Below are positions 1,219-26,421 of a DNA stretch of 26,654 bases, piece by piece. Position numbers and translations under genes: made by a program. Positions within the stretch are counted from its first letter, which is position 1. Each line of letters opens with the position of its first letter. The notes under the pieces were generated by a model. The model was given only the letters and a program-made list of their open reading frames with translations. It was not told the DNA's origin and ran no database searches. Source of the DNA: Clostridia bacterium (GTDB lineage: Bacteria; Bacillota_A; Clostridia; Christensenellales; CAG-138). The stretch is from contig JAFPXU010000025.1 in the NCBI GenBank assembly GCA_017394605.1, positions 1 to 26,654 on the forward strand, written 5' to 3'.

Positions 1219-4209
1219 TCAGGCAAGGAGATAGCTGTATTCGGCCAGAATCGTGAACAGGATTTTTTCGATATCCGTATCGAGATCCGAAACCTGTTCG
1301 AGATCGATCTCACAAACTTTTCCGTCCACCCTGAGCTTGAACTTTTTGTCCGAGATATGGAAGAACCCTGGATTGTCGCTTTCGTCAAACTCGGCTTCCG
1401 TCGAGAACAGCGTCAGTTTCTCCTTATAGGGTTTACTGTCATACGGACAGAAGATATAGCAGTTTCCGCATTCGTTGCACATTCTGTCAACATGAATAAT
1501 CTGCGGCATGCGGAGTCCCTTAACATCCAGAGCGATATTGGCGCGGTTCGGGCAGACCTGCACGCAGCACTCGCAGACGGAGGAGCAGGCAAGGCAGCGT
1601 TCGGATTCTCTGTAGCCGCTGTCGAAAGGACGAAGAATACCCTGTTTTTTAAGGCAATCTTCAGGCGAGGGTTCCGCGTCTGACGGGATTCTGTACGCGT
1701 ATTGTCCGATGATCGCGTCCGTAACGGTCCGCGCGTCTGCAATCGCCTCAACGATTGTCGCGGGACCGCGGTTTGCGTCACCGATCACAAATACGCTGTC
1801 CATGGATGTCTGAAGCAGGTCATCCACGGCGACGCGCCCTTTGGGTGTCAGATCGATGTCCTGCTCACGGAAATATCCGTCGTCGACAAGATTTCCTGTC
1901 GCGGAGATGAGGGAGGAGCAGGGGAGCTCCACCGTTTTTCCGGTCTTGACCGGCGAACGCCTTCCGGATGCGTCCGGATCGCCGAGACGCATTTCATCGC
2001 ACACGAGCATGCCGTTTTCAAGAGATTTAGGAGCGAGAAGTTCGGAAAATTCAACGCCGTCCTCGAGTGCAAGAGCAAGTTCCTCTTCGTCGGCTGGCAT
2101 ATATCTCCGCGTTCTGCGGTAGACAAGGCGGACATGTTTCACGCCCGGAACGCGCAGCGCGGTCCTAGCGGCGTCCATAGCTGTATTACCGCCTCCGATG
2201 ACAGCGATATCCTCGCCGAGAGACGGAAGCGTGTTGTTCTTGAACTGTTCCAGGAAATCGAGAACGTTGATCGCGGTTCCTTTCTCAAGTCTGAGATCTC
2301 CGCGTTTCCATGCGCCCGTTGCGTAGATAACAGCTGTATATCCCTGTTTCTTCAGTTCCTTCAGACTCGGGGCCTCTTTTCCGGTTCGGATATCGACACC
2401 CATGGCACGGATGATCTCCGCGTCTTTATCGATCGACTCGTCCGAAATACGGAAAGGCGGGATCACATAGCGGACGATGCCTCCGAGTTTTTCCCTGCGC
2501 TCAAAGAGCGTTACGGACGCTCCTTCACGGCCAAGGAAATATGCCGCAGCCATTCCCGCGGGACCGCCGCCGATCACGGCAGCTTTGATCTCCCTGTTCT
2601 GCGGAACGGCGGGTTTGAGTTCATTAATGACTTCCTCAAATCCGTTTTTCGCCGCGACAAGTTTCGCGTCGCGGATATGCACGCTTTCTTCGTAGAAGTT
2701 TCTCGTGCACTTGTCCATGCAGTGATGGCTGCAGATCGTACCGGTCATGAAAGGAAGCGGATTCTTCTGCAGGATCAGCTCAAGCGCCTCTTTATACTTG
2801 CCTTTGCCGACAAGTTCCACATATTCCGGAATGTCCTGATGGATCGGGCATCCGTGCGTGCATGGAGCCGTAAAGCATGTCGTCAGCGGGACCTTGGTCG
2901 GAATCTTCCTGTTCGGAAGCGGTTTGATCGCTTTTTTATTGCGCGAATCCGTCTTGCTTCTGGTCGCGAGATACTCGACTTTGCCGACGGATACGCCGTC
3001 GAACTCCTGGTACTCGGCTTTCAGAAGCTTGTTGGCCATCTGTTCGAGACGCTGGTAACCGCCGGGCTTCAGAAGAGTGGTGGCAAGCGTGATAGGCCAA
3101 ATACCGGATTTGAACAGCTGCGCGATATTGTTGACATCGATGCCGCCGGAGAAGGAGAGGCGGAGAGTTCCGGCGAATTCCGCGCTGATCCGTTTCGCCA
3201 TTTCGATCGTGAGAGGGTAGAGGGAACGGCCGCTCATGTACATCTCGCTGCTCGGCAGCTCGTTTCTCGTAACATCAACAGGGAATGTGTTGGAGAGCTT
3301 GAGTCCGAATGTCACGCCGTTTTCCGCAGCCTTAGCGAAAAGACGTCTGAACATCGGTACGGCGTCTTTGTACTGCAGATCCTCGTTGAAATGATGTTCG
3401 TCGAATACGATATAGTCGAATCCGAGATCATCCAGGATCTTTCTGGCGGTCTTGTAGCCGAGGATGGTCGGATTGCATTTCACAAAGGTGTGGAGTTTCT
3501 TGGTTTCGATCAGATAGGAAGCGATGCGTTCGATCTCGGTCGGCGGGCATCCGTGAAGCGTGGAGAGCGTGATGGATCGGCAAATATGAGGATTGATACA
3601 TTCGAGATAAGCGTCATCCACATGGGAGAAACGGGAAGCATTGGCTTTCGCCCATTCCATGCATGTTTTCCAGGCAGGCGAATTGGAGGCGTCTTTCAGG
3701 CCTTCGATGAAATTGTCGATTTTCGGGCTTGTGATGCCGGCATAATCGTATCCTACGCTCATGTTGAAGATGAACCCGTCCGGATCGCCGATATCCCATT
3801 CTTTCGAGAGAAGTTTGATCGCGAACCATGCTTTGACATACTCCCAGAACGCATCTTCGACCGTCAGTTCCGTGGACCATTCGCAGTTGTAGCATTCATC
3901 CCCTGCCGTGATGCACGGTTTCGGAACACATTTGGAAAGCTCTTCGCCGTCCATGATCTGGACGGTCTTCAGTTCGAAGAACCGCGCGCCGGCATAATAG
4001 GCGGCAATGATGTTTTGAGCGAGCTGGGTATGCGGACCTGCGGCGGGGCCGAAGGGAGTGTCGAGCTTCTCTCCGAAAATGGAAAGCTGTTTCCCTTTTA
4101 CAGCCTGAAAGTGACGGCGCACGCCGAATACGGAACCGTGTTCCGCACGCTCGGTCAGAATCCAATCCATCAGAGCCGGAAACGGAATCGGAGTCATTTT
4201 GTCAGACAT
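1219..4209 (-). CDS. ygfK: YgfK-type flavin / iron-sulfur oxidoreductase
   Basis: A 996-residue multidomain protein, close to the family's usual length. The N-terminal part (about 1-430) resembles a dihydroorotate-dehydrogenase-like barrel (DTPFGPAAGPHTQLAQN). A glutamate-synthase-small-subunit-like module follows: cysteine clusters near residues 440-500 (CFTAPCTHGCP, CSHHCMDKC), an FAD motif near 547 (GGGPAGMAAAYFLG) and an NAD(P)H motif near 670 (GGGNTAMDAAR). The C terminus (about 870-925) has two ferredoxin-type [4Fe-4S] motifs (CLACSSVCECCVQVCP, CNECGNCYIFCPY). The start at 4209 is preceded by AGGAGGA 7 nt upstream. A start 21 nt further up would translate the ribosome site itself. The family is called putative selenate reductase subunit YgfK and is linked to selenium-dependent hydroxylases and anaerobic purine/urate catabolism. 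The exact reaction is unsettled. Its family partner ssnA lies immediately upstream. Confidence 0.92.
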   Translation of the reverse strand: MSDKMTPIPFPALMDWILTERAEHGSVFGVRRHFQAVKGKQLSIFGEKLDTPFGPAAGPHTQLAQNIIAAYYAGARFFELKTVQIMDGEELSKCVPKPCITAGDECYNCEWSTELTVEDAFWEYVKAWFAIKLLSKEWDIGDPDGFIFNMSVGYDYAGITSPKIDNFIEGLKDASNSPAWKTCMEWAKANASRFSHVDDAYLECINPHICRSITLSTLHGCPPTEIERIASYLIETKKLHTFVKCNPTILGYKTARKILDDLGFDYIVFDEHHFNEDLQYKDAVPMFRRLFAKAAENGVTFGLKLSNTFPVDVTRNELPSSEMYMSGRSLYPLTIEMAKRISAEFAGTLRLSFSGGIDVNNIAQLFKSGIWPITLATTLLKPGGYQRLEQMANKLLKAEYQEFDGVSVGKVEYLATRSKTDSRNKKAIKPLPNRKIPTKVPLTTCFTAPCTHGCPIHQDIPEYVELVGKGKYKEALELILQKNPLPFMTGTICSHHCMDKCTRNFYEESVHIRDAKLVAAKNGFEEVINELKPAVPQNREIKAAVIGGGPAGMAAAYFLGREGASVTLFERREKLGGIVRYVIPPFRISDESIDKDAEIIRAMGVDIRTGKEAPSLKELKKQGYTAVIYATGAWKRGDLRLEKGTAINVLDFLEQFKNNTLPSLGEDIAVIGGGNTAMDAARTALRVPGVKHVRLVYRRTRRYMPADEEELALALEDGVEFSELLAPKSLENGMLVCDEMRLGDPDASGRRSPVKTGKTVELPCSSLISATGNLVDDGYFREQDIDLTPKGRVAVDDLLQTSMDSVFVIGDANRGPATIVEAIADARTVTDAIIGQYAYRIPSDAEPSPEDCLKKQGILRPFDSGYRESERCLACSSVCECCVQVCPNRANIALDVKGLRMPQIIHVDRMCNECGNCYIFCPYDSKPYKEKLTLFSTEAEFDESDNPGFFHISDKKFKLRVDGKVCEIDLEQVSDLDTDIEKILFTILAEYSYLLA

Positions 4210-4233
4210 ATAGTTCCTCCTGCTTTTCAAAGA

Positions 4234-4263
4234 ATAATATGGGTATTCATATCAAACATTCAA
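4234..4263 (-). promoter_or_regulatory. Promoter for ygfK
   Basis: On the minus strand, TTGAAT (complement of 4258-4263), an 18-bp spacer and TATTAT (complement of 4234-4239). The -35 box overlaps the U-tract of the ssnA terminator, so ygfK can be transcribed alone. Confidence 0.6.
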
Positions 4264-4290
4264 AAAAGCTGCCGCGAAAACACGGCAGCT
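4262..4290 (-). terminator. Intrinsic terminator after ssnA
   Basis: On the minus strand, an 8-bp stem AGCTGCCG/CGGCAGCT (arms 4283-4290 and 4267-4274) with an 8-nt loop is followed by six T (complement of 4262-4267). It begins 6 nt after the ssnA stop codon. Confidence 0.85.
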
Positions 4291-4295
4291 GTTGA

Positions 4296-5621
4296 TCAGC
4301 CATTAATGGACTTCCACAGGCGGGATGCGCTCTCACGGCATTCCTTCATTAGGGCAGCTTCGTCGCAGACAAGGACTTTTCTGTCCTTCATCAGGACCTT
4401 GCCGTTGCAGATCGTCGTTACGACGCTCTTTCCGTTCATGCCGAAGAGGATATGACCGTTCACGTTGGAGGCGTCCATCGGTGTCAGCGGATCATAGTCG
4501 GTCACGATCACATCGGCGTATGCGCCGGGACGGATGACGCCGAGAGGCTGTTTGAAATAGCGGGCAGTGATCATCCGGTTGTTGTCAAAAAGCATGGTCG
4601 GGATTTCGCTCCAGGCAACGGTCGGATCGCACAGATGATGCTTATGGATGATGTTTCCGACCTTATAGCTTTCCAGCATGTCGTTCGTATAGCCGTCCGT
4701 GCCGAGACCGACAAGAACGCCTTCCTTGATCATATGGATGACGGGACCGCAGCCGACCGCGTTGCCCATGTTCGATTCGGGGTTATGAATGACCATGGAA
4801 TTGGTATCGCGGAGGAGTTCCATCTCAGCCTTGTTGATATGCACGCAGTGAACGGCAAGAGTATGGCTGCCGAGGACACCGTTATCATAAAACCTTTCAA
4901 TAATGCGCTTGCCGTATTTATCGAGAGAATCCTGAAGGTCTTTCGGCCCTTCGGCGCAGTGGACGTGATATCCAGCTCCGTGACGGTGCGCTTCGCAAAG
5001 TTTCAGGGTATCGTCGGAGACTGTAAAGGAAGCGTGAAGGCCCATCAGACCTTTCAGCATATCGGTGTCGTCTTTCTGCGCACGGAGGATGAAGCGTTCG
5101 TTCTCCTCGATGCTCTCCATTTTTTTCTTTTCGCCGTCACGGTCGGAAACCTCGTAGCAGAGGCAGGACCTGACGCCGAGATTCACGGAAGCTTCGGCGA
5201 GATCGTCCAGACTTCCGGGGATATCATAATAGCTGGCATGATGGTCGAACACGGTCGTAACGCCGTTCTTGATGCAGTCCACAAACACAGCGTAAGCGGA
5301 AAGCTTGTTGTTCTCATGCGTAAGCTTCCTGTCGATCGTCCACCACTGGCCTTCCAGAATATCCATGAAATCCTTCGGCTGATAGCCCTTAATGGAAAGA
5401 CCGCGCGCGAAGGCACTGTAAATATGGTTATGCATGTTGATCAGTCCGGGCATGATGACGCAGCGTTTCGCGTCGATGAAATCAGCATCCGGGTATTTTG
5501 CCTTCATCTCGGAAGTCGTGCCGACGTCCTTGATCAGTTTTCCGTCAATGACAACAGCGCCGTCATCATAGAATTTACCGTCGTCCCGCGTGATCAGACG
5601 GCCGTTACCGATAAGCATCAT
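4296..5621 (-). CDS. ssnA: SsnA-type aminohydrolase (metal-dependent amidohydrolase)
   Basis: A 441-residue protein of the amidohydrolase superfamily, matching SsnA in length and in its association with ygfK. Visible metal and catalytic residues are the HxH of MHNHIYSAFARG (H64, H66), H221 and E224 (VHCAEG), H258 (LAVHCVH) and D309 (GLGTDGYTND). The family deaminates or hydrolyses cyclic nitrogen compounds. SsnA is genetically tied to anaerobic purine/urate breakdown, but its substrate is not established, and a cytosine- or guanine-deaminase-like activity is possible. Two adjacent ATGs (5621, 5618) could start it, with GGGG about 12 nt upstream. It is the first gene of the minus-strand pair, is followed by its own terminator, and diverges from the threonine-synthase-like gene. 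Confidence 0.92.
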   Translation of the reverse strand: MMLIGNGRLITRDDGKFYDDGAVVIDGKLIKDVGTTSEMKAKYPDADFIDAKRCVIMPGLINMHNHIYSAFARGLSIKGYQPKDFMDILEGQWWTIDRKLTHENNKLSAYAVFVDCIKNGVTTVFDHHASYYDIPGSLDDLAEASVNLGVRSCLCYEVSDRDGEKKKMESIEENERFILRAQKDDTDMLKGLMGLHASFTVSDDTLKLCEAHRHGAGYHVHCAEGPKDLQDSLDKYGKRIIERFYDNGVLGSHTLAVHCVHINKAEMELLRDTNSMVIHNPESNMGNAVGCGPVIHMIKEGVLVGLGTDGYTNDMLESYKVGNIIHKHHLCDPTVAWSEIPTMLFDNNRMITARYFKQPLGVIRPGAYADVIVTDYDPLTPMDASNVNGHILFGMNGKSVVTTICNGKVLMKDRKVLVCDEAALMKECRESASRLWKSING

Positions 5622-5655
5622 ATTGAACTCAATCCCCTTTCCTAAATCTCTTTAC

Positions 5656-18393: not shown

Positions 18394-18923
18394 GCTTTCG
18401 CCCTCCCGTACAGTATGCCCGCAAGCGCGACGGCGATCACAACGATGACAGGAGAAATATGCATGAAGGCAATAGCTGCGAATGAAGCCACACACAGCAA
18501 TGCGGTCAGCCAGTTGTGGATGCTCTTTTTACCCAGTTTTATAACGGAAGAAGCTATCAGCGCAGCTACAGCAACGCGTATCCCGTTAAACGCGTGCGCA
18601 ACGACCGGGGAACCCCAGAACTGTTTTAAAACCGAAGCGATCAGAAGAATGACGATAACGGGAACCGTCACAATCCCCAAGGTAGCCGCAATGCTTCCCG
18701 GAACTTTCTTCCGCTTATATCCGACAAATGTCGCCGTATTGATCGCGATGACGCCGGGTGTGCACTGCGCGACGGCAAAATAATCCATCAGTTCGTCTTC
18801 CGTAGCCCAGTTCCTTGTTTCGGACAGTTCTCGGATCAGAAGCGGGAGCATGGAATAACCGCCGCCGAAGAGGAAGGCGCCGATCTTCATAAAACAAAGA
18901 TAAATCTGAATTAATTCCTTCAT
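18390..18923 (-). CDS. chrA: CHR (chromate transporter) family protein, first half-size subunit
   Basis: A 177-residue single CHR domain with FMKIGAFLFGGGYSMLPLL (about 11-29) and the family motif QCTPGVIAINTATFVGY, then several membrane helices. The start at 18923 shares a base with the stop codon of the preceding gene (TGATG), with GGGGAG upstream. Paired with the next short CHR gene it should form the functional two-domain transporter (compare the Bacillus YwrA/YwrB pair). The substrate is not evident. Confidence 0.9.
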   Translation of the reverse strand: MKELIQIYLCFMKIGAFLFGGGYSMLPLLIRELSETRNWATEDELMDYFAVAQCTPGVIAINTATFVGYKRKKVPGSIAATLGIVTVPVIVILLIASVLKQFWGSPVVAHAFNGIRVAVAALIASSVIKLGKKSIHNWLTALLCVASFAAIAFMHISPVIVVIAVALAGILYGRAKA

Positions 18924-20341
18924 CAGAACACTCCCCACTGCAAAGCAAAAGCGTACAGGTATCCCGAAAGCAGCACGATCGACAGGATGCTGAACAAAAA
19001 GCTCCATGCTTTATGCTTGAGACAAGCGGCAAGACCGATCAGAACAGGCACGCAAAGAATGGAATATCTCGGTGCAGACACAAGATTCCCGAAGCTGAAT
19101 GCTGCGAGATAATAAAAGATTCCGTAAACCGTGAAGGAAAGACGGATCCTCCGCACGGACAGGAGAAGTAACAACGGAACAGCAACAAAACAGATCAGAT
19201 TAGGCAGGACATAACCATACAGCGCCTGAGCAGATCCGGAAGCAAACGAGTGAAAAAATGTCTGAACGACAGTGCAGAAATTCTGAAAAACCGTCGTGAA
19301 TCCTGTATTGGGAAGTTCAGCAGACAGGATGAACCACGGAAATACCGTACCGGATCTCCGTTCGATCAGTGTCACGCAGAATACCGTAACGGCAGGGATC
19401 AGAAAAGCGGAAAGCATCTTCGGAATATACGCTCCTGAGAGCGCTCCGGTATCGACTGAAGTGCTGCGGTCGTTTCGGAAATCCGTCATCAGTTCAAAAA
19501 CGACGGGAACGATGAGCAGGACACCCGTCAGGGCTGTTGCAGCTCCCGCAGCGGCGGAAAGAACTGCGGGGAAGTAACGGCGTCTGCGAGCGAATGACAG
19601 CGTCAGAATTGATAATAACAGATATAAAGCGTCCGCAGCGGGCAGATTCAGCAGAAAAGAAGGTGGCAGAACACAAAGAAACCACACGGCACGGAACGCG
19701 CAGCCGTTACCGTGATCATTCAATACGAGTCTGTAAAGCGCCGCTGACGAAAGAATGAAGCAGAGGAAAGATAGGATCAACCCCGCAAGAAACCGGTTTC
19801 CGGTCAGAAGATTCAAACCGGATACGAGCGCAGGATAAAGAGGAAACAGCGGCAGATAGGAGGATGTCGGGAAACCGGGAGCGGCATACCAGCTGTTCGA
19901 AATATTTAAGTAGGAGCTGCCCTGCGAATAGGGCGGATCCCAGAGTGCGGACATCTGCAGTATACCGGATTCATATCCGTATACAGCCGTATGTATCGCG
20001 TAAACGGCGACAAAAAACACGATTCTGGATAATGCCGCCATCAGAATGACCGTCAGTACGGGATGACGGACGGTAGGGGATAGGGAACGCTTTCCGTGAA
20101 CGTCCGCCGCATCCGGCAAGGAATCGGATCCGGCCCGCATCAGTTCCAGAAAACATCCTGAAGTCCGGATCAGTAGAAACGCGATGAGTAACGCAAGCAG
20201 ACCGGTAAAGACGGTCGGCAACACAGCGGAAGAATTGCCCATAAGCCAGAACGCAAAAAAGCCGATCAGGACAACCTGGGGCATCAGAGTAATCAGTACA
20301 GACTTTACCGTATTCTGTTTGTCAGAGAGATTCGGTTTCAT
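18923..20341 (-). CDS. Multi-pass membrane protein resembling Gpi18/PIG-V-type mannosyltransferases
   Basis: A 472-residue protein with roughly 10-12 hydrophobic segments. Two features fit the GT-C fold of Gpi18/PIG-V-like glycosyltransferases: an acidic WD at 134-135 after the first helix pair, in an outward loop, and LPLFPLYP (163-170), matching the family's FFPLYP signature. Such enzymes move a sugar from a lipid-phosphate donor outside the membrane. The bacterial acceptor is unknown. Its stop overlaps the start of the CHR gene by one base and it lies 10 nt after the zinc-ribbon gene. No strong ribosome site precedes the ATG, so it may depend on translation of the gene before it. Confidence 0.6.
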   Translation of the reverse strand: MKPNLSDKQNTVKSVLITLMPQVVLIGFFAFWLMGNSSAVLPTVFTGLLALLIAFLLIRTSGCFLELMRAGSDSLPDAADVHGKRSLSPTVRHPVLTVILMAALSRIVFFVAVYAIHTAVYGYESGILQMSALWDPPYSQGSSYLNISNSWYAAPGFPTSSYLPLFPLYPALVSGLNLLTGNRFLAGLILSFLCFILSSAALYRLVLNDHGNGCAFRAVWFLCVLPPSFLLNLPAADALYLLLSILTLSFARRRRYFPAVLSAAAGAATALTGVLLIVPVVFELMTDFRNDRSTSVDTGALSGAYIPKMLSAFLIPAVTVFCVTLIERRSGTVFPWFILSAELPNTGFTTVFQNFCTVVQTFFHSFASGSAQALYGYVLPNLICFVAVPLLLLLSVRRIRLSFTVYGIFYYLAAFSFGNLVSAPRYSILCVPVLIGLAACLKHKAWSFLFSILSIVLLSGYLYAFALQWGVF

Positions 20342-23075: not shown

Positions 23076-23609
23076 ATGACACTGCTTTTTGATGTGATCC
23101 TCATGGCTATGGCCGTTTACATTCTTGTAGGCGGTATTTCCGGTAAAGGGAAACTGCTGAAAGCCGACAATATCAAGGAAGGCAAGGAAGAGGAATTCAA
23201 GAAATACTCCAGAATCACTTATATTGTATTGGGATGCACCATGTTACTGCACAGCCTTATTACGACTGTTCAGAATCTGGTCTATGTCTATGATCCTGAA
23301 GCCAAAGCATTTGTCGCGACAAAGCCTTCCGGTCTCACGGACGCGATCAGTTATGAGCTTTTCCGCGCTTTTGGCATCGCATTCTTCGTACTGACGATTG
23401 CAGCGCTTGTTGTCCTGATCGTTCTCATGCGCAAGTACACGGATCCGGAAAAAATGAAACAGAATGCCGGCGCCGCGCAGAACGAACGTCAGAAAGGCCA
23501 TATCCTGCCGGTGGATGCGTTCGATTTCGATGAGGAAGAAACGGCAACCACGGAAGCCGCGGAAGAGAACAAAAAACATCTTGACGATTACGGGAAAACG
23601 GAGGAATAA
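23076..23609 (+). CDS. Small membrane protein of unknown function
   Basis: A 177-residue protein not assigned to a family. Three hydrophobic segments are visible: about 3-20 (LFDVILMAMAVYILVGGI), 48-66 (TYIVLGCTMLLHSLITTV) and 95-117 (FGIAFFVLTIAALVVLIVLM). A charged loop lies between the first two, and a long acidic C-terminal tail (DAFDFDEEETATTEAAEE) is likely in the cytoplasm. GGAGG lies upstream of the ATG, 15 nt after cysS, and galE starts 1 nt after its stop, so it is in the same operon. Confidence 0.8.
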   Translation: MTLLFDVILMAMAVYILVGGISGKGKLLKADNIKEGKEEEFKKYSRITYIVLGCTMLLHSLITTVQNLVYVYDPEAKAFVATKPSGLTDAISYELFRAFGIAFFVLTIAALVVLIVLMRKYTDPEKMKQNAGAAQNERQKGHILPVDAFDFDEEETATTEAAEENKKHLDDYGKTEE

Positions 23610-24648: not shown

Positions 24649-26421
24649 ATGAACAAGAAAGTAAACGGCAATACATCGGGCATCAGAGATTCCGTCTTAA
24701 ACGGAATCTCTGAACTATACGACTGTTCTTTTGATTCGGATACCTTCGTAGATAAGGATCTGATCGACAGGATTAGTTATGTAACAGCGCTCGTTAACAG
24801 GGAAGTGCTCGTTTACATCTCACGAGGCGGAAGAGTGCTGGACATCAGGCTTGGCGACGATCATTCCGTTCATATGGAAGAAATCCGCGTAGTCCGCAAT
24901 ACGGACCGGTTATCCGGCGTTCGGTGCATCCATACACATCCCGGCTCGAGCGGCATGCTTTCCGCAGTCGACCTCGGTTCGCTTTCATCCCTGAAGCTGG
25001 ATGCCATGTGCGCCATAGGCGTTGACCAGAATGGAAACGCCACGGATCTTTATATCGCGTATCTGTCCGTCTCCGACGGCACCGAAGTAAAGCCTGTCAT
25101 GTACGGTCCGTTCAGTCCGTCCAGAATTCCGCAGAAGATGCTTATGGACGAGATTTACGCATCTGACCGTGCGTTTGTATCTTACGACAGTAAAGTAACG
25201 GAATTCGAACCTGACAAGGCAGTCCTGGTAGGCATTAATTCCGATCCGCGCTACGACTCGCTTGATGAGCTGGCGTCTCTCGCTGAAACTGCCGGGATCG
25301 TTGTAGTAGGAAGGGATTCCCAGAATAAAAGATCGATCGACAGCGCCACCTATGTAGGTTCGGGAAAGGCGAACGATCTTTCCTTGCTTTGCAGTGAACT
25401 GGAAGCGGATATTGTTGTTTTCGACGATGAGCTGAGCGCCGTGCAGATGAAAAACCTGGAGTCTATCCTCGGGCTTCCCGTTATCGACCGCACCATGCTG
25501 ATACTGGACATCTTTGCCCAGCGCGCTGCATCCAGAGAAGGAAAGCTTCAGGTGGAACTCGCGCAGCTTCAGTACAGGCTTCCGAGGCTGATCGGAATGG
25601 GAAGGATTCTATCAAGACAGGGTTCTTCCGGTGTGGGCATGCGCGGTCCCGGAGAGAAAAAGCTTGAGATCGACCGCAGAAGGATCCGCAGACGGATTTT
25701 CGAGCTTCGTCAGGATCTGTCGGAAATAGAGAAGCAGCGTTCTCTCAGAAGGGAGCAGAGGACAGGAAACAGGATACCGACCGTCGCGCTTGTCGGATAC
25801 ACCAACGCCGGCAAATCCACGATACTGAATCTTCTGTCGGAAAGCGACGTGCTCGCGGAGGACATGCTTTTTGCCACGCTGGATCCCGTTGTTCGAAGAA
25901 TTACGCTCCCGAACGGTCAGGAATGCCTTCTTTCGGATACGGTCGGATTTATCAATAAACTTCCGCACGAACTGATCGACGCGTTCAAATCCACGCTGGA
26001 AGAAGTCAGCAGCGCGGATCTGATCCTTCACGTGATCGACGCGTCTTCCGAATATCTGGATGTACAGATTGAAACCGTGGAGGAGGTTCTTTCGCAGCTT
26101 GGCGCATCGGATACGCCGGTCATCCGCGTCTATAACAAAATGGACTTAATCGGCGCGGATACTGTCCTGAAGGATGACGGCATCCTGATCAGTGCAAAGC
26201 ACAAGAGAGGGATAGAGGAGCTTCTGAGGGAGATCCAGAACGGAATCAAATCAAAGCAGGTGAAGGTGGACATCCTTATTCCGTACGATAAATATGAAAC
26301 CGTGCATGCGGTGCGATCAGCCGGCAAGATTCTGAACGAGTCGCACGAAGAGCAGGGGACGAGGCTTACCGTTCTGCTGAACGAGGAGGAACTCTGGAAG
26401 ATCAGGAACATGCTGGATTAA
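24649..26421 (+). CDS. hflX: HflX-type GTPase with an N-terminal JAMM-like domain
   Basis: A 590-residue protein, well above the usual 400-430 of HflX. Residues about 187-590 are a complete HflX: an N-terminal nucleotide-binding-like domain, the linker GVGMRGPGEKKLEIDRR, G1 GYTNAGKS (383-390), G3 DTVGF (430-434), G4 NKMD (496-499) and G5 SAK (515-517). HflX splits stalled or stress-inactivated 70S ribosomes. The first 180 residues are extra and contain HTHPGSSGMLSAVD (95-108). This fits the JAMM/MPN+ metalloprotease signature H-x-H-x7-S-x2-D exactly, with E52 or E77/E78 as candidate catalytic glutamate. It lies 21 nt after galE and is last in the T-box operon. Weak GAGG precedes the ATG. Confidence 0.93.
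   Translation: MNKKVNGNTSGIRDSVLNGISELYDCSFDSDTFVDKDLIDRISYVTALVNREVLVYISRGGRVLDIRLGDDHSVHMEEIRVVRNTDRLSGVRCIHTHPGSSGMLSAVDLGSLSSLKLDAMCAIGVDQNGNATDLYIAYLSVSDGTEVKPVMYGPFSPSRIPQKMLMDEIYASDRAFVSYDSKVTEFEPDKAVLVGINSDPRYDSLDELASLAETAGIVVVGRDSQNKRSIDSATYVGSGKANDLSLLCSELEADIVVFDDELSAVQMKNLESILGLPVIDRTMLILDIFAQRAASREGKLQVELAQLQYRLPRLIGMGRILSRQGSSGVGMRGPGEKKLEIDRRRIRRRIFELRQDLSEIEKQRSLRREQRTGNRIPTVALVGYTNAGKSTILNLLSESDVLAEDMLFATLDPVVRRITLPNGQECLLSDTVGFINKLPHELIDAFKSTLEEVSSADLILHVIDASSEYLDVQIETVEEVLSQLGASDTPVIRVYNKMDLIGADTVLKDDGILISAKHKRGIEELLREIQNGIKSKQVKVDILIPYDKYETVHAVRSAGKILNESHEEQGTRLTVLLNEEELWKIRNMLD

Follow-up and report, generated by a model that had tools for sequence, protein, structure and literature searches.

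A predicted JAMM/MPN+-like domain joined to the GTPase HflX in Clostridia and fusobacteria

Bacteria have few general ribosome-splitting factors, and HflX is one. According to a 2025 review of the mycobacterial protein, splitting begins when accommodation of the HflX domain ND1 displaces H69; the N-terminal extension of mycobacterial HflX, which is 39-58 residues long, touches uL16 and H38 and extends to the H69-71 junction (PMC12493154). The same text mentions HflX proteins with N-terminal extensions in several Clostridium and Paenibacilli species and says no more of them, and the terms JAMM, JAB and metalloprotease are absent from it; N-terminal HflX extensions of varying length are reported for most bacteria in a 2016 paper (PMC4770234). 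Here we describe a 590-amino acid (aa) HflX encoded on contig JAFPXU010000025.1 (assembly GCA_017394605.1) of a Clostridia bacterium, within a stretch of 26,654 nucleotides (the window), in which a predicted JAMM/MPN+-like domain (the N-domain) precedes the GTPase. HflX and JAMM proteins are each well known; their fusion has no recognizable description in the literature searched, most subscription papers and all preprints lying outside the coverage of that search.

Like the mycobacterial extension, the additional region of the window protein is placed ahead of ND1. The former is short, however, and acts by disordering rRNA according to the review (PMC12493154), whereas the latter is a predicted folded domain of about 186 residues. 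The remainder contains every part of the GTPase, from ND1 through the helical region and the G domain to the C-terminal domain, as in described HflX proteins (TIGR03156; 8a57, 5ady), from which the window protein differs in that its extra N-terminal residues form a separate enzyme-like domain. JAMM/MPN+ metalloproteases, such as Pyrococcus JAMM1 (5ld9/5lda), AMSH/AMSH-LP, Rpn11 and CBASS Cap3, share with the N-domain its predicted fold, the HxH...SxxD signature and a conserved Glu opening the first core strand; unlike these enzymes, the N-domain is joined to a ribosome-splitting GTPase, has no recurrent partner gene nearby and is a putative peptidase, with identities of 3-23% to JAMM/MPN chains in fold alignments. 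RadC (PF04002; 2qlc) is mostly a separate frame of ~215-265 aa in the genomes sampled, whereas the N-domain precedes HflX and misses the RadC cut-off.

Architecture and predicted fold

The features of the gene, by position in the window, are as follows.

24649..26421, + strand: hflX gene with JAMM-like N-domain, 590 aa (open reading frame (ORF); TIGR03156 458.8 bits against a cut-off of 216.75)
24649..25206, + strand: JAMM/MPN+-like N-domain, residues 1-186 (AlphaFold2 (AF2) model, JAMM-fold matches, profile links to AMSH, Prok-JAB and RadC)
24802..24804, + strand: E52, candidate for the catalytic Glu, opening the first core strand, residues 52-58 (211/211 alignment rows; HHalign pairing with the Glu of RadC REHF; strand 52-58 in the AF2 model)
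24931..24972, + strand: JAMM motif HTHPGSSGMLSAVD, residues 95-108 (sequence, conservation in homologues)
25210..26418, + strand: HflX core, residues 188-590, with ND1, helical middle region, G domain and C-terminal domain
25795..25821, + strand: G1/P-loop GYTNAGKST, residues 383-391 (sequence)

The ORF comprises 590 codons from an ATG that has GAGG a few bases on its 5' side. Its HflX core is complete: the TIGR03156 model passes its equivalog cut-off over residues 191-531, Pfam models cover GTP-bdg_N (203-290), the middle region (292-371) and the G domain (378-497), the full-length model has the HflX fold, and eight of the nine P-loop positions are invariant in an alignment of relatives, A387 being nearly so. 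The original prediction that some 180 extra residues stand ahead of a complete HflX is therefore correct, the HflX models beginning at residue 191 (TIGR03156) or 203 (Pfam). Residues 1-186 have no Pfam match at an E-value of 10 and no NCBIfam match at an E-value of 1.

Searching with the full-length model gave only HflX and other GTPase-type folds among the 50 matches listed, and the N-domain was therefore folded by itself. AF2 models residues 1-190 with a pLDDT (predicted local distance difference test) of 89.9 and a pTM (predicted template modeling score) of 0.84, and the N-domain model matches JAMM folds, as had been anticipated from the motif; the top solved folds are ubiquitin (Ub) or ubiquitin-like protein (Ubl) deconjugases or their relatives. 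Profile comparisons point the same way. A 27-row N-domain profile has its best PDB matches in AMSH-like proteases (E 0.0011), aligned over HTHP..S..D, with other kinds of match (ribosomal S19, adenylyltransferase) at E 0.18 or worse. Prok-JAB (PF14464) is weakly matched by 11 of the 27 relatives (best E 9.6e-4), RadC by four (best E 0.0011), and 12 further families by one to three relatives each near chance level; the window protein itself matches neither PF14464 nor PF04002, and the curated cut-offs are missed. Sub-cut-off PF14464 matches also lie at N-domain positions in three HflX-sized frames (G016, G102 and G055). In HHalign comparisons the N-domain gives E 2e-6 and a probability of 89.5 against 20 RadC sequences from the same phylum, with E52 paired to the RadC Glu, and E 0.013 and a probability of 3.4 against 22 Prok-JAB sequences, RadC against Prok-JAB giving E 3.4e-5 as a yardstick. 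These sequence and model comparisons place the N-domain in the JAMM superfamily, nearer to RadC by HHalign, and outside the Pfam Prok-JAB and RadC families because the cut-offs of both are missed.

Conservation and distribution

Residues 95-108 fit the pattern H-x-H-x7-S-x2-D exactly, as originally claimed, and we take H95, H97 and D108 to be candidate zinc ligands and S105 to be the candidate oxyanion-stabilizing residue, with roles as in the JAMM family. Shuffling of the 590-aa protein produces the pattern in 193 of 200,000 cases and the stricter H-x-H-P form in 6 of 200,000. Conservation was assessed in an alignment of 211 rows, namely the window protein, 209 homologues from databases and a duplicate (P0122, contained in P0123 of Caloramator quimbayensis), four of the rows being shorter than 550 aa; the homologues are the best 120 of 210 found with residues 1-190 and 89 found with a Caloramator homologue as query. 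In this set, which is biased toward motif retention given that candidates were picked by short words shared with the query, E52, R59, G61, G69, C93, H95, T96, H97, P98, S105 and D108 are present in every row, R92 in 210 and R83 in 209. The expectation that the His-His-Asp residues would be kept in homologues thus holds, both here and for the full catalytic set in 47 of the 53 copies from the genome sample described below. Among the acidic residues proposed as the catalytic Glu, E52 is upheld, its position being taken from strand prediction and HHalign rather than from superposition on a solved JAMM active site, whereas E77 (112/211) and E78 (119/211) are unconserved and drop out. C93 (24925-24927), which precedes the first motif His by two residues, is replaced by Ile in the Fusobacterium protein and is possibly a redox-sensitive site.

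A search of named genomes returned 507 candidate stretches with a relative, of which the best 80 were used. An HflX frame is recognized by pattern in 77 of these 80 loci, and HxHP-x6-SxxD is found in 74 of the 77; in the other three, Thr replaces Pro (L048), the reading is out of frame at this point (L071) or the locus begins within the gene (L078). When 26 of the best 80 loci are aligned with the window protein, E52, H95, H97, S105 and D108 do not vary. Mean pairwise identity is 0.48 for the N-domain compared to 0.60 for the core, and a catalytic set that is invariant even though its domain is the less conserved part is what selection on the active site would be expected to produce.

Carriers of the fusion include metagenome-assembled genomes (MAGs) of Clostridia, Christensenella, Caloramator, Clostridium bornimense and Clostridium sp. 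BNL1100, with fragments from Selenomonas and Anaerovibrio; a MAG protein, P0037, carries the name Candidatus Cryosericum as its record name only. Beyond these, the fusion is present in Fusobacterium animalis and F. vincentii. In F. animalis, HflX has 600 aa, holds HTHPGGNPHLSSVD and can be aligned with the window protein over nearly its whole length at 40% identity, so that at least two phyla carry JAMM-HflX. The Fusobacterium genes lie at L226:3998-5800 and in L227, and the F. vincentii record (2.1 Mb) is labeled a plasmid and looks like a chromosome from its size. A Calditrichales label on one locus (L079) was set aside, as its genome groups in the phylum of C. bornimense. A viral origin was also rejected: a single contig from a viral collection has JAMM-HflX, and has it as a full hflX gene. 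On this 15-kb contig the gene (L225:4001-5824) adjoins an ORF that by eye resembles a polysaccharide deacetylase, and the contig is possibly bacterial DNA.

A less biased sample came from 299 whole genomes, taken evenly across the phylum of C. bornimense, against which the N-domain profile was run. The profile matches 57 genomes, 53 of them in HflX-sized frames and four in frames of 232-251 aa that fit RadC. HflX itself is present in 228 genomes, and the N-domain is thus found in about a quarter of these (53/228). Fifty of the 53 copies were read, of which 44 have the E/H/H/S/D set intact, four read EFRSD (L115-L118) and two are without HxH (L126 and L127); the remaining three (L172-L174) keep the motif and have Glu at the expected place. 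Scoring covered up to six candidates in each genome. Within this limit, 52 of the 53 genomes have no HflX match at E 1e-60 other than the JAMM copy, and C. bornimense has three matches in all; JAMM-HflX therefore probably carries the normal HflX role itself.

Proteins of ~105-330 aa were searched for a standalone N-domain, and none of the 89 obtained is a clear standalone copy. Thirty continue into the HflX core, 37 end before it with at most 15 unmatched residues and 22 have a longer unmatched tail, which looks like a frame change, a rearrangement or a broken contig (by eye: P0217, P0226, P0240, P0251 and P0282); a rare genuine standalone copy may be among the 89. The motif is present in 80 of them, and most of the other nine are cut off or out of frame there, with P0278 having Glu and P0299 Asn at a ligand position. 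Given that no clear standalone copy was found, the domain seems to act tethered to HflX.

The history of the fusion was examined on an unrooted tree of 84 HflX cores, built by a quick method and serving as a rough guide, with 25 of its 80 inner branches open. None of the 34 rows labeled as lacking the domain matches the N-domain profile, and the N-termini of four (L136-L139) were read. Presence or absence of the domain takes 7 changes on the tree and loss of the catalytic set takes 2, compared to ~27 and ~6 for shuffled labels; supported branches force only two of the seven changes, and no direction is assigned to them. We infer an old fusion with repeated loss, gain and loss being inseparable on an unrooted tree.

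Gene neighborhood and other reading frames

The order of genes in the window is cysS, a 177-aa ORF, galE and then hflX. Across 67 related loci, taken with crude gene calls and up to four genes to either side of hflX, the most frequent neighboring family occurs in 16, so no recurrent neighbor was identified, ubiquitin-like proteins not having been searched for as such, and no neighbor family points to a substrate. Prp is the protease that processes bL27. The idea that the fusion substitutes for Prp was rejected, as Prp is present in 43 of the 53 JAMM-HflX genomes and in 187 of the 246 others (Fisher p 0.48), with no anti-correlation.

The ORF between cysS and galE (23076-23609, +) has only weak, membrane-protein-like Pfam matches, and galE probably starts at ~23611 (MAVLVTGGAGYIG) rather than at 23464. 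Two long ORFs, 1219-4230 (-) and 1702-4455 (+), overlap; the former is the likely gene, as it has the Pfam pyridine nucleotide-disulphide oxidoreductase domain with Fer4_20, and the latter is without a Pfam match. Likewise, the amidohydrolase at 4296-5621 (-) is favored over the opposing ORF at 4452-5645 (+). A 472-aa ORF at 18923-20341 (-) has no Pfam match at an E-value of 0.1.

Proposed function and its alternatives

At a probability of roughly 0.55, we favor a function in which the N-domain is a zinc-dependent JAMM/MPN+ hydrolase, most likely a peptidase or isopeptidase, that is joined to HflX and cuts a protein on the ribosomal particles to which HflX binds. Judged from sequence and model, it is plausible that, as originally proposed, ribosome splitting is coupled to the cutting of a tag, a nascent chain or a ribosomal protein. 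HflX-GTP would bind stalled or idle 70S or 50S particles and, as ND1 settles by H69, the JAMM domain directly ahead of it would reach the intersubunit face. If its path is that of the mycobacterial extension, the domain might lie near uL16, H38 and H69-71, and in that place it would face the subunit interface. There it could cut an exposed protein, perhaps the tail of a ribosomal protein, a bound factor or a conjugated group. A single visit to the particle would then serve for both splitting and trimming. We suggest only tentatively the more specific possibility that HflX delivers a ribosome-targeted deconjugase or processing protease in Clostridia, Selenomonas relatives and fusobacteria, which would remove a covalent modification or cut a ribosome-bound protein.

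The main alternative, possible if on balance doubtful, is a scaffold without catalysis: the N-domain would be MPN-minus-like, would attach to rRNA or to a ribosomal protein and would aid HflX in splitting or in holding subunits, the JAMM residues serving for structural zinc and fold stability. The Glu and Ser of JAMM enzymes are not direct zinc ligands, and a structural role alone leaves unexplained why E52 and S105 vary no more than the His and Asp residues do. Weighing against catalysis, however, are the two groups of sampled copies, six of the 53, that keep the domain without the catalytic set (L115-L118; L126 and L127), as well as two more HflX proteins that seem to hold a decayed N-domain (L140, which matches the N-domain profile at E 6.7e-10, and L135, on length and by eye only). 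Moreover, the conserved arginines R59, R83 and R92 could face RNA, and the mycobacterial extension is reported to promote 70S splitting via disordering of H68-H71, albeit with far fewer residues (39-58) than are present here (PMC12493154).

Cleavage of HflX itself or of an HflX regulator, for example autoproteolysis near the linker at ~180-188 that would free the GTPase under stress, appears improbable. Residues 180-183 have pLDDT values below 50 in the full-length model, perhaps implying that the linker is reachable, and the N-domain is met only in cis with HflX, fragments aside; linker residues 177-187 are poorly conserved, however, and the usual targets of JAMM enzymes are other proteins. 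The HHalign preference for RadC over Prok-JAB would be consistent with a metal hydrolase acting on a non-protein bond, in a modified nucleotide or small molecule, or with a RadC-like activity of unsettled chemistry. This we consider slightly more improbable still, given that the top solved folds belong to the Ub/Ubl deconjugase group and that we know of no non-peptidase JAMM enzyme. Finally, a chance motif or a gene-calling artefact, in which an ordinary HflX has been given a spurious upstream extension, might be suspected from Pfam JAB matches that are weak throughout and absent for the window sequence alone, but is already refuted, mainly because the N-terminal region is conserved across two phyla in many genomes and in addition by the confident fold prediction.

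About a quarter of the sampled genomes that have HflX thus carry a zinc-protease-like part on it, which no Pfam or NCBIfam model names in the window protein, and results obtained for HflX of E. coli or Listeria may not transfer to these bacteria. The proteins in which the JAMM His residues are lost (L115-L118, L126, L127, L135 and L140) offer a natural set in which to test for a non-catalytic role. If the favored zinc-dependent hydrolase is an isopeptidase, bacterial ribosomes would need a so far unknown protein-conjugation signal, comparable to the ubiquitin marking of stalled ribosomes in eukaryotes. The fusion raises the testable question of whether a protein on stalled bacterial ribosomes is cut or deconjugated during splitting.
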